From Bacillota bacterium (GTDB taxonomy: Bacteria > Bacillota > GCA-003054495 > Carboxydocellales > JAJZSN01): DNA of 50,122 nt. Position numbers and translations under genes: made by a program. Location: the NCBI GenBank assembly GCA_021849745.1, contig JAJZSN010000010.1, positions 1 to 50,122 of the forward strand, written 5' to 3'. Numbering within the stretch: the stretch's first letter is position 1; every line of letters starts with the position of its first letter. Below the pieces are notes generated by a model. The model saw nothing but the letters and a program-made list of their open reading frames with translations. It did not search any database and was not told the DNA's origin. Shown one piece after another: positions 16,275 to 20,149 of the stretch.

Positions 16275-16469
16275 ATGTTCCTCCATTCGGGATATGTAAT
16301 AAAGACCCGTGAGCAACGAAGGGTTACTGCCTCTCCCGAAGTCGACCCTAGCCCACCATTCTTTCATATTTTTTTCGACATGGCCCAAACAAATCCTTTA
16401 TACCAAATAAAAAGGAAATATATTACCATTGTCGAAGTTTACCAATTAATCGGAAAATGGAGGTTGGAA

Positions 16470-16610
16470 ATGGAAAAAGGTTATCTTATCCTGATGGTTG
16501 ATGATGAGCAGGAGATTGTGGAGTTGGTAAAAGATTATCTGGTGAGGGAAGGGTTCCGAGTGGTTACTGCCGGGGACGGGCAGGGGGCCCTGGAAGCCGC
16601 CCGAACTACG
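16470..16610 (+). pseudogene. Response regulator, receiver-domain fragment
   Basis: ATG 16470, with GGAGG at 6-bp spacing, starts a clean receiver domain: LILMVDDEQEIVELVKDYL and FRVVTAGDGQGALEAA. After about 45 residues homology ends abruptly at ARTTNRP, where the DNA becomes intergenic repeat-like sequence (ACTACGAAC, CCCCTAACCCCTGACCC). The frame continues only in proline-rich nonsense to 16685. The phosphoacceptor Asp strand and the DNA-binding domain are missing. The nonsense part is antisense to the DUF2892 gene. Confidence 0.75.
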
Positions 16611-16658
16611 AACCGACCCACAAGAACCTCCCCACCCCTAACCCCTGACCCTAGAGCA

Positions 16659-16871
16659 CTACCCCTTAGATTCACGATAGGTTGACCAACCTACCAGGTG
16701 GGCAAGGGGTCAGTATCTGGTGGCTACGGTGGCTGTTTCCACCAAGCCGAGGAAAAGGGCCGCCCACCACCAGTTATAACCGGCATTTTGGCCCCAGTAT
16801 GCAGCCAGCAGCAGGGTTAGAGACACAAAGAGCCGTAGATACCACTCAGTACCTCCCACGTTTTTGCGCAC
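16659..16871 (-). CDS. DUF2892 (YgaP-like) small membrane protein with in-frame TGA at the conserved Cys; candidate selenoprotein
   Basis: GTG 16871 follows GAGGAGG and encodes MRKNVGGTEWYLRLFVSLTL, which matches the DUF2892 N-terminal signature (K-N-V-G-x-x-D/E, then two membrane helices). After 53 codons TGA (16712-16710) appears, then PLAHLVGWST and a TAG at 16661-16659. The family normally ends CPLYxLLGxxT, so TGA sits exactly where the conserved Cys is expected. A hairpin (16673-16700) starts 9 nt downstream, with an 8-bp upper stem and GGUC loop about 22 nt from the UGA, as in bacterial SECIS elements. If TGA is a plain stop, the product is 53 residues (16710-16871). Sec insertion is inference; selABCD are not in the window. 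Confidence 0.6.
16673..16700 (-). promoter_or_regulatory. Putative bacterial SECIS hairpin
   Basis: Read on the minus strand: lower stem CAC/GTG, a CT bulge, upper stem GGTAGGTT/AACCTATC (8 bp with one G-T wobble) and apical loop GGTC. The E. coli fdhF SECIS also has a GGUC apical loop. The loop is 22 nt after the TGA. No bulged U is seen in the upper stem, a departure from the E. coli form. Confidence 0.45.
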
Positions 16872-16927
16872 GTTATTGACCTCCTCAGGGTAAATATTAA
16901 AAAAAGATTAACTATCCAGCCAGTCCA

Positions 16928-16957
16928 TTGACTTTTATAATTACCGGGTGATAGAAT
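16928..16957 (+). promoter_or_regulatory. Promoter of the RND efflux gene
   Basis: TTGACT, an 18-bp spacer and TAGAAT. The predicted start site falls at the edge of the palindromic operator that follows. Confidence 0.55.
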
Positions 16958-16967
16958 TATTATACGA

Positions 16968-16991
16968 ATGACCGACTGGCCAGTCGGTCAT
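16968..16991. promoter_or_regulatory. 24-bp perfect palindromic operator, TetR-family-like
   Basis: ATGACCGACTGG is followed immediately by its exact reverse complement. It lies between the promoter and the ribosome site of the RND gene, a position where a bound repressor would block transcription. The GACCGACTGG-type core resembles sites of TetR/AcrR-family regulators of efflux genes. No tetR gene is in this window. Confidence 0.7.
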
Positions 16992-17011
16992 ATTTTATTG
17001 GGGAGGTTTAT

Positions 17012-20000
17012 ATGCAGTTAACTGAACTTGCTATCAAAAGACCTGCTATGATGAGTATGGTCATCATGACTTTTATTGTTTTGGGACTTTATACATATTC
17101 AAAGATTGGTGTGGAATTATTCCCCAATGCCAATATACCGGTGGTAACTGTATCGGTGGGATACTCCGGGGCGGGGGCCCAGGAAATTGAGACCCAGGTG
17201 ATTAAACCCTTGGAATCGGCCCTTTCTTCCGTCAGCAAGGTGAATACCATGGTCTCTTCAGCTAGAGAAGGTATGGGTTCCATCATGATTGAATTCGACC
17301 TTTCCGCAGACCCGGATATGTCCTTACTGGATGTGCAAAAAAAGGTTGATGCTTACCGCGGCATGCTGCCAAAAGAAGTAGATAATCCGGTAGTAATGAA
17401 ATGGGATATGAACGCCCAACCGGTGATGTTTCTCCAGCTAACCAGCGCCAAACCTCTTTATGAAAGTTATGAAATGGCCAAGGATCTGATTAAGGAACGG
17501 TTGCAAAGGGTTCCCGGTGTGGCTGATGTCTCTGTAGTGGGCGGCCAAAAGAGGGAAATTCAGATTAACCTGGATAAAGCAAAACTGGACGGCTACGGAA
17601 TCTCCATCAGTCAGATTATTAGCCGATTACGGGCGGAAAACCTTAACCAACCCAGCGGGCGCCTTGATCGTCCCGAAAAAGAGTATAATGTCCGGGTGCT
17701 GGGCGAATTTAGCGACGTAGAAGAAATCAGGAACTTGGATATTCCTTTGGCAGATGGCAGCACGGTAGCCTTACGGGATGTGGCTACCATTATCGATGGT
17801 TATGAGGAAATTCGTAACTACAGCCGGTTAAATGGTGAAACCGGTGTGGGGATTATGGTTTTCAAGCAAAGTGACGCCAGTGTAGTGGATGTGGCGGAAG
17901 AGGTTCGCAAGGAAATCGATGGTCTCAGTCGGCAAATGCCGGGTGATTATAAGTTGACTATTTCCACCGATACTTCAGAGTTTATTAACAGCGCTTTGAA
18001 CGGAACAACCAACAATATTATAGAAGGAATTATCACGGTGGCCATAGCTTTATACCTGTTCCTGCGGGAATGGCGATCCATGCTTATTGTTATCTTAGCC
18101 ATACCAACTTCGTTGATCGCTACCATTATGGTTATCTATTTCGCCGGGTTTACCTTTAACTTTCTGTCCATGATGGGCTTGGCCATGTGTATCGGGATTC
18201 TGGTGGATGATTCCATCGTGGTGCTGGAGAACATTCATCGTCATCTCAAAATGGGAAAAAGCCCTATTCAGGCCGCTTTGGACGGACGAAAGGAAATTGG
18301 CATGGCTGCCATCGCCATTACTCTCTCCGACGTGGTGGTGTTTGCTCCCATCGCTTTTATGGACGGGATGATTGGGCAGTTTTTCCGGCAGTTTGGCTTA
18401 ACGGTAGTTTTTGCTACTTTATTCTCTCTCTTCATTTCATTTACCTTGACCCCCATGATGGCTTCCCGGTTGTATAAACAGGAGAAAGAGCTGATGGGAG
18501 GCCAAAGGCCGGATACCGGGCGGATATCCATTGCGGGTTGGTTAAAGAAGAGGTTTGAGCCTATGGGTAAGAGGATTGCCCAATGGTATGAGGACACCAT
18601 CATCTGGGCTTTAGATCATCGGAAAACGGTGCTTGGGGCAGCTTTTGCGGCTTTCGTAGCTGCTGTGGCCCTGATTCCTATGGGGGCTGTAGGAGCAGAA
18701 TTTATGACCAGGGCCGACCAGAATGTGTTGAATGTGACTCTTGAAATGCCCACCGGAACCCCTATTCAAAATACCGATGAGGGTTTAAGAGAGATTGAGA
18801 AATACATCAAAACTATTCCCGAAATTAAATATTATCATACCACTCTGGGTTCTTCCGGTGGCATGGGAGGGGCTTCCGGTTCCCATATCGGTCGTATTGG
18901 GGTACAGTTGATTTCAAAAAATGATCGAGAGAGGACTGTTTGGCAGATTGGTGATGATATTCGGAAGTGGAGTAAAAGTTTCCCTTACGGAAAAGTCAGT
19001 GTAAGTGAACAGGACAGCATGGGAGGACCAGGGGGATCTGCTATCCAGATTCAGGTTAAAGGTACTGAACCCAAACAACTTGTACAGGTTTCTGAAAAGG
19101 TACAAGAAATTCTTGCCAACACACCGGGGGCTATTGATGTGGATACCGACTGGCGTTTGGGTCAGCCTGAACTTCAGGTGAAAATTGACCGGATGCGGAC
19201 AGTTAAACTTGGACTTTCTGTAGATCAGGTAGCTCGTACTGTACGATCCAGCATCAGCGGTGAAAGGGCGGGTTATCTCCGTACCGGTGATGAAGAAATA
19301 GATATGGTTGTCCGTATGGATCAGTTAAATAAAGATGATGTTGAGGCTATTAAAAGAATTACTATCCCTACCGGTGCAGGTAATCTCGTACAACTCCAGG
19401 AAGTGGCTGAAATTACAGTGGGCAGCGGTCCTACTGAAATCCGGCGTCTGGACCGACTGCGTGCCATAACTGTTACGGCGGGAATTAGGGATAGAGCGCT
19501 AAATGATATATCCACCGAAATCCAAGGAAAAATTGATAAACTTAAGCTGCCCGCCGGTTTTGAGGTAAAACTTGCCGGGCAGACCCAAGAAATGCAGGAT
19601 ACTTTCCAGGATTTAATTGCCGCTCTGGTTCTTTCAATTACCCTGGTATACATGGTTTTAGTTATGCTTTATGAGTCCTTCTTAACTCCCTTTATCCGGA
19701 TGTTCTCCCTTCCTTTGGGGGTAGTGGGGGCATTGGTGGCCCTGGCTGTCACGGGTAATTCCCTCAACGTCTTCTCCATGATCGGAGTAATTATGATGGA
19801 TGGTCTAGTGGCCAAAAACGGTACACTATTACTGGATTATACCAATACTTTATTAGAGCGGGGGTATAATCTGCGGGAAGCTTTGATTGAGGCCTGCAAA
19901 ATCAGATTGCGGCCTATCATGATGACCACTATTACCATGGTTTTCGGCATGATGCCTGTAGCCGCAGGTTTGACCGAAGGGGCTGAAACCAGGGCCGGGA

Positions 20001-20149
20001 TGGCCGTGGTATTGATTGGCGGTCTGATTACCTCCACCGCCTTTACTCTAGTGGTAATCCCGGTGATTTACACTATTATGGATGACCTGAAGAAATGGCT
20101 GCGCCGGAAGTGGGAGGCCCGCAGGCAAGCTGTGGCCTCGGTTAGATAG
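17012..20149 (+). CDS. RND-family efflux transporter (AcrB/HAE-like)
   Basis: A 1045-residue inner-membrane RND pump. It has an N-terminal helix (IKRPAMMSMVIMTFIVLGLY), two large periplasmic/extracellular loops, and the TM4 proton-relay motif GILVDDSIVVLENI with the paired Asp. The second half repeats the fold, ending LVVIPVIYTIMDDL. Such proton-driven pumps export hydrophobic compounds or metals, and the substrate here is unknown. GGGGAGG precedes the ATG. No membrane-fusion protein or outer-membrane partner gene is adjacent, as in some monoderm RND loci. The upstream palindrome suggests repression relieved by the substrate. Confidence 0.93.
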   Translation: MQLTELAIKRPAMMSMVIMTFIVLGLYTYSKIGVELFPNANIPVVTVSVGYSGAGAQEIETQVIKPLESALSSVSKVNTMVSSAREGMGSIMIEFDLSADPDMSLLDVQKKVDAYRGMLPKEVDNPVVMKWDMNAQPVMFLQLTSAKPLYESYEMAKDLIKERLQRVPGVADVSVVGGQKREIQINLDKAKLDGYGISISQIISRLRAENLNQPSGRLDRPEKEYNVRVLGEFSDVEEIRNLDIPLADGSTVALRDVATIIDGYEEIRNYSRLNGETGVGIMVFKQSDASVVDVAEEVRKEIDGLSRQMPGDYKLTISTDTSEFINSALNGTTNNIIEGIITVAIALYLFLREWRSMLIVILAIPTSLIATIMVIYFAGFTFNFLSMMGLAMCIGILVDDSIVVLENIHRHLKMGKSPIQAALDGRKEIGMAAIAITLSDVVVFAPIAFMDGMIGQFFRQFGLTVVFATLFSLFISFTLTPMMASRLYKQEKELMGGQRPDTGRISIAGWLKKRFEPMGKRIAQWYEDTIIWALDHRKTVLGAAFAAFVAAVALIPMGAVGAEFMTRADQNVLNVTLEMPTGTPIQNTDEGLREIEKYIKTIPEIKYYHTTLGSSGGMGGASGSHIGRIGVQLISKNDRERTVWQIGDDIRKWSKSFPYGKVSVSEQDSMGGPGGSAIQIQVKGTEPKQLVQVSEKVQEILANTPGAIDVDTDWRLGQPELQVKIDRMRTVKLGLSVDQVARTVRSSISGERAGYLRTGDEEIDMVVRMDQLNKDDVEAIKRITIPTGAGNLVQLQEVAEITVGSGPTEIRRLDRLRAITVTAGIRDRALNDISTEIQGKIDKLKLPAGFEVKLAGQTQEMQDTFQDLIAALVLSITLVYMVLVMLYESFLTPFIRMFSLPLGVVGALVALAVTGNSLNVFSMIGVIMMDGLVAKNGTLLLDYTNTLLERGYNLREALIEACKIRLRPIMMTTITMVFGMMPVAAGLTEGAETRAGMAVVLIGGLITSTAFTLVVIPVIYTIMDDLKKWLRRKWEARRQAVASVR

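Follow-up and report, generated by a model that had tools for sequence, protein, structure and literature searches.

A very likely selenocysteine form of the YgaP-like transmembrane family PF11127 in anaerobic Bacillota

A small gene on the minus strand of the window, that is, the whole stretch of 50,122 nucleotides of Bacillota DNA that was analysed, is very likely a genuine selenoprotein gene, encoding a selenocysteine (Sec) variant of PF11127, the YgaP-like transmembrane family. The evidence for this assignment is comparative, and no biochemical or mass-spectrometric evidence is available. In the proposed explanation, tRNA-Sec and SelB would decode the UGA at codon 54 as Sec under the direction of a SECIS hairpin, the loop and inner stem of which are formed by the codons of a G-W-S-T motif. 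The protein would consist of two transmembrane helices followed by the Sec residue at a membrane surface, which is cytosolic as judged by charge. The lone selenol would have to react with a partner or a second subunit, and may relay redox equivalents or sulfane sulfur/selenium at the membrane surface. Viewed across genomes, the gene likely represents an undescribed and widespread family of anaerobic Bacillota, comprising tiny two-helix membrane proteins that lack Cys, carry a single Sec at the cytosolic surface and have a GWST tail that is fixed by their own SECIS.

The locus and its host genome

The gene (16659..16871, minus strand) starts with GTG at 16871 and runs for 53 codons to a TGA at 16712-16710, followed by 16 more codons and a TAG at 16661-16659, yielding a frame of 70 codons. 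The start codon is preceded at a distance of 8 nt by a Shine-Dalgarno-like GAGGAGG (16880..16886, minus strand). With the TGA taken as Cys, the 70-residue product matches the PF11127 profile YgaP-like_TM with an E-value of 4e-15 (56.1-59.4 bits versus a cut-off of 25.3), and the TGA (16710..16712) aligns with the conserved Cys column of the family. PF11127 is the family formerly called DUF2892. It is the only domain in the 70-residue protein; the rhodanese domain with its catalytic Cys, which marks YgaP as a sulfurtransferase, is absent. Furthermore, a profile search found no PF11127 gene other than the selenoprotein gene in the host genome, which is a draft assembly of 85.8% completeness.

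An earlier note, made without database searches, had claimed the GTG-started frame with its GAGGAGG, the TGA at codon 54 and the in-frame continuation to a TAG on the minus strand, all of which held on inspection of the sequence. Its assignment of a DUF2892-type protein in which TGA replaces the conserved Cys also held, on the basis of the PF11127 profile and the alignment. The note had further proposed searching the genome for the Sec machinery, and all components were found: a tRNA-Sec with anticodon TCA (C150:19309, 70 bits), selB (C150:38161, 392 bits), selA (C57:20717, 633 bits) and two selD genes. Each selD gene carries an in-frame TGA at the active site, CAG(U)AAK, and Sec decoding is therefore already required elsewhere in this genome. 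The two selD loci are L156 (G000:C17:5262-6185) and L157 (G000:C110:14057-14980), the second of which sits in an open frame of 774 codons, suggesting a fusion.

Two further features flank the gene. A truncated response-regulator receiver fragment (16467-16685, plus strand) is convergent with the selenoprotein gene and overlaps its end. The earlier note had described this neighbour as decayed; the fragment is real, but it has no bearing on the Sec reading. On the other side, a perfect 22-nt palindrome, TGACCGACTGGCCAGTCGGTCA (16969..16990), lies between the selenoprotein gene and a divergent gene for an RND transporter (17012-20149, plus strand). The palindrome occurs only once in the window and could be a regulator site or operator common to the selenoprotein gene and the RND efflux transporter gene, a possibility that is inferred from the sequence alone.

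Recurrence of the TGA and of the SECIS hairpin

A sample of 399 genomes of the phylum was searched with the PF11127 profile, reading through stop codons and counting them. Exactly one TGA is present in 38 of the listed matches (window included), while a single match carries TAA and none carries TAG; the lone TAA member is divergent and lacks the Cys altogether. Extraction of the frames showed that 34 genes from 33 of the 399 genomes have the TGA exactly at the conserved Cys column, and that it is followed by a tail of the form x-x-Y-D-L-L-G-W-S-T. In addition, the DNA pattern TAYTGA-N13-TNNTN-GGTTGGTCAACC was scanned across the collection of named species, which comprises about 85,000 genomes. 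All 59 loci that were returned are in frame with a PF11127 Sec-type tail, and the N-terminal half of the family is likewise present wherever the upstream sequence is long enough. An earlier protein-based contig scan with the window protein as query had returned no relatives, which were then found by the DNA-pattern scan. The hosts include Clostridium ljungdahlii, three Sporomusa species, Desulfosporosinus, Desulfotruncus, Desulfallas, Natroniella, Anaerosolibacter and many Syntrophomonas. Two loci lie on contigs of metagenome-assembled genomes (MAGs) labelled Desulfovibrio and Actinobacteria, and the tree places both among Bacillota sequences, so that mis-binning or transfer is possible. Some genomes are common to both searches. 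The TGA with the conserved downstream sequence and hairpin is present in about 90 genomes. The alternation of Cys and TGA at one column among homologues, which the earlier note had proposed as a check, is thus met.

The region downstream of the TGA behaves as coding sequence. Among 72 non-redundant members, codons +1 to +6 keep their residues with free third positions, the YDLLG motif being conserved with wobble, and the first ten codons after the TGA are free of stops in every member. A PF11127 match was obtained for all 65 aligned Sec members. In some short members of 48-50 residues (L102, L103, L115 and L119, from Anaerosolibacter, a Marinisporobacter MAG and Clostridium ljungdahlii), much of the two-helix region seems to be missing, yet the Sec, the SECIS and the G-W-S-T tail are retained.

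A second PF11127 group, from one bacterial family (L088, L089 and L090, the same genes as L186 and L187), has TGA at the same Cys column, and further TGA matches exist in the family of genomes holding these loci. In place of G-W-S-T, its tail has a conserved PACR....PRDG and a possible GCCG-CGTGA-CGGC hairpin. This group may represent an independent gain of Sec (UxxC), or its TGA may be a true stop; either is possible.

In the window, the predicted RNA fold contains an 8-bp upper stem (16676..16695, minus strand; arms 16695-16688 and 16683-16676) capped by the apical loop GGUC (GGTC, 16687-16684), which lies 22 nt after the UGA. The whole extended structure (16662..16709, minus strand) includes an outer CCCCUU/AAGGGG stem and has an energy of -19.5 to -21.7 kcal/mol; this outer stem is predicted from the window sequence only. 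The hairpin with its 8-bp upper stem and apical GGTC had been claimed by the earlier note and held. Its placement at 9 nt after the TGA held only in part, as that distance leads to a short lower helix; the upper stem of 8 bp starts 14 nt after the TGA. The bacterial SECIS check proposed there was also passed, with the window hairpin meeting all four constraints of the bSECIS model, namely loop, G position, spacing and energy, the limits of which were taken from PMC13188914. An Rfam search of 16500-17050 found no family.

The near-invariant protein motif G-W-S-T is encoded by GGT TGG TCA ACC (16680..16691, minus strand), which is at the same time the SECIS core. This core, GGTTGGTCAACC (16691-16680), is kept in 27 of the 34 members from the unbiased phylum search. 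When expected counts are computed from the codon usage of each locus itself, GGT is found in 28 of 32 cases (9.2 expected), TCA in 31 of 34 (5.5) and ACC in 32 of 34 (11.5). The four codons occur together, 18 nt after the TGA, in 27/34 members versus 0.44 expected, out of 96 possible synonymous spellings. Furthermore, the inner pair that varies most, +20/+33, is G-C in some members and A-T or G-T in others, and none of 2000 shuffles pairs as well. Three members instead read GGG TGG TCT AC(C/T), i.e. GGGTGGTCTAC(C/T), and in these the hairpin is re-formed one base over with the loop still within GGUCU.

Energy-based tests gave weaker support. Under a strict minimum-energy bSECIS test, 16 of the 34 members pass (39/72 overall), versus 2 of 32 Cys homologues; the low pass rate arises because many members keep a stem of only 4-6 bp. 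The plain minimum free energy differs only weakly from that of synonymous shuffles (mean z -0.71), the hairpin being present in 21/34 natural sequences versus 16% of shuffles. The RNA-level case therefore rests on codon choice and covariation.

The presence of selA follows the TGA form: all 33 TGA genomes have the gene, against 64 of the 94 in which every PF11127 gene is of the non-TGA type (Fisher p 3e-5, without correction for relatedness; tallied by hand from the phylum search results). A tree built with the Sec column masked, from few columns and with weak deep support, requires two changes, of which one separates Sec from Cys forms and the other is a reversion to Cys. The latter concerns L095 (G303), which reads TGC ... 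GGT TAT TCT AGC, shares its genome with a Sec copy and is likely a Sec to Cys reversion with a decayed SECIS. Three Cys forms of another family (L161, L173 and L169) come from genomes without selA, and two of them keep W-S-T with other codons (TCG ACG, TCG ACT). Their appearance is what might be expected after loss of Sec use, or of a state ancestral to it, though this is no more than a possibility. W-S-T had been considered exclusive to the Sec form, an idea that was dropped, as these two Cys members of a single selA-less family keep it.

Inferred function and rival explanations

In the structure model (m4665d739d597), helices are predicted at residues 7-29 and 32-51 with a pLDDT of about 90, and Sec54 is placed just after helix 2, immediately before a short helix at 55-59. 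The N- and C-terminal ends are net positive, which suggests that both face the cytosol. Since no other Cys is present in 63 of 65 members, an internal CxxU-type bond is excluded for those, which need a thiol on a partner, or a dimer. Neither a PDB sequence search, which gave only a chance match, nor a fold search, which gave none, provided a link to the solved YgaP structure. Neighbourhood clustering revealed no universal partner gene and most members stand alone, so that the function remains poorly constrained. We tentatively favor the view that, in anaerobes, the selenol is anchored to the membrane and passes on electrons or sulfane sulfur/selenium on its cytosolic side; this function is inferred, and we consider it slightly more likely to be wrong than right. 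The role in sulfur/redox metabolism suggested by the earlier note is likewise still inference only.

The rival that survives best accepts the selenoprotein and assigns it a role in selenium handling or homeostasis, for example as a membrane partner of YedE/YedF/DUF3343, instead of a general redox or sulfur relay. This remains possible. Four of the 72 non-redundant loci (L068, L069, L091 and L150) have yedE 1-2.5 kb upstream of the Sec gene, where we estimate about 0.1 loci by chance, assuming one yedE per 3 Mb genome. These clusters include a TusA/YedF-like gene and/or DUF3343, and some also have LysR and a cysteine-desulfurase-like gene, the names having been read from the sequence and not assigned by profiles. 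YedE, YedF, DUF3343 and LysR_Se are predicted selenium-metabolism genes (PMC9312934). However, the other 68 loci, including that of the window, show no yedE linkage.

It is very unlikely that the TGA is a true stop and the downstream hairpin a conserved regulatory or termination element. Conservation of the hairpin at the nucleotide level would agree with this, but the YDLLG coding signature with its third-position wobble, the lack of early stops in 72 members, the homology to Cys proteins that runs through the TGA and the presence of selA in every case speak against it. Reading of the TGA as another amino acid, such as Trp, or near-cognate readthrough is equally very unlikely: no evidence was found in its support, the aligned residue in relatives is Cys and not Trp, selA is present in every such genome and the SECIS fits the bSECIS model. 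A nonsense mutation or decaying pseudogene, in which a Cys codon became TGA in this strain alone, was the main rival in the earlier note and could draw on the truncated response-regulator fragment next door and the incomplete draft assembly, but it is all but excluded by the recurrence of a same-column TGA with conserved coding sequence and hairpin in 33 of the 399 genomes of the phylum sample and at 59 loci in named species, where TAG is never seen at this position and TAA only in the one divergent Cys-less member. The reading of UGA as Sec is thus very strongly supported by the comparative evidence.

Novelty and relation to known systems

The PF11127 Sec family is likely new to the literature. 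PF11127, DUF2892 and YgaP are absent from the 119 prokaryotic selenoprotein families in Table 1 of PMC13188914 (May 2026). YgaP is not mentioned in PMC9312934 or PMC12013277, nor DUF2892 in PMC9312934. Full-text literature searches, which did not cover preprints and most subscription papers, found no paper linking YgaP, DUF2892 or PF11127 to selenoproteins, and NCBIfam (June 2026) contains no model matching more than a stray member or two, individual RefSeq records being outside the scope. The statement in the earlier note that no DUF2892 selenoprotein was known to it therefore held in the literature and tables searched.

The Sec reading would add to the prokaryotic selenoproteome a widespread family of acetogens, sulfate reducers and syntrophs, among them the cultured model C. 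ljungdahlii; in standard annotation the protein would be truncated at the UGA. An integral membrane protein in which a lone Sec occurs without any Cys is unusual. The amino-acid sequence is apparently constrained by the embedded SECIS. Moreover, the Sec form suggests that the reactive residue of the large and poorly understood DUF2892/YgaP-like family is its conserved Cys.

The general features of known bacterial selenoproteins (PMC13188914) are shared by the PF11127 Sec form, including UGA as the Sec codon, a SECIS just downstream, a GG opening the apical loop and homologues with Cys in the same column. However, most characterised selenoprotein families combine a redox motif with a thioredoxin-like fold (PMC13188914), whereas the form described here is an integral protein of the membrane and has a single Sec without any Cys. 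The SECIS resembles that of E. coli fdhF in its apical GGUC(U) loop and similar spacing, but the stem sequence and host protein are unrelated, and many PF11127 Sec members have a shorter stem. The two-helix domain and the conserved residue after helix 2 are common to the Sec form and the PF11127 family at large, to which the membrane domain of E. coli YgaP belongs. In YgaP this residue is Cys159, located where helix 2 (L142-G160) ends, in a membrane domain that forms a dimer packed via its helices and in which SCN- binding tightens helix 2 (PMC4730233). In contrast to YgaP, members of the window type have Sec in place of this Cys and stand alone at 48-83 residues without a rhodanese domain, and they have a G-W-S-T tail that carries the SECIS.
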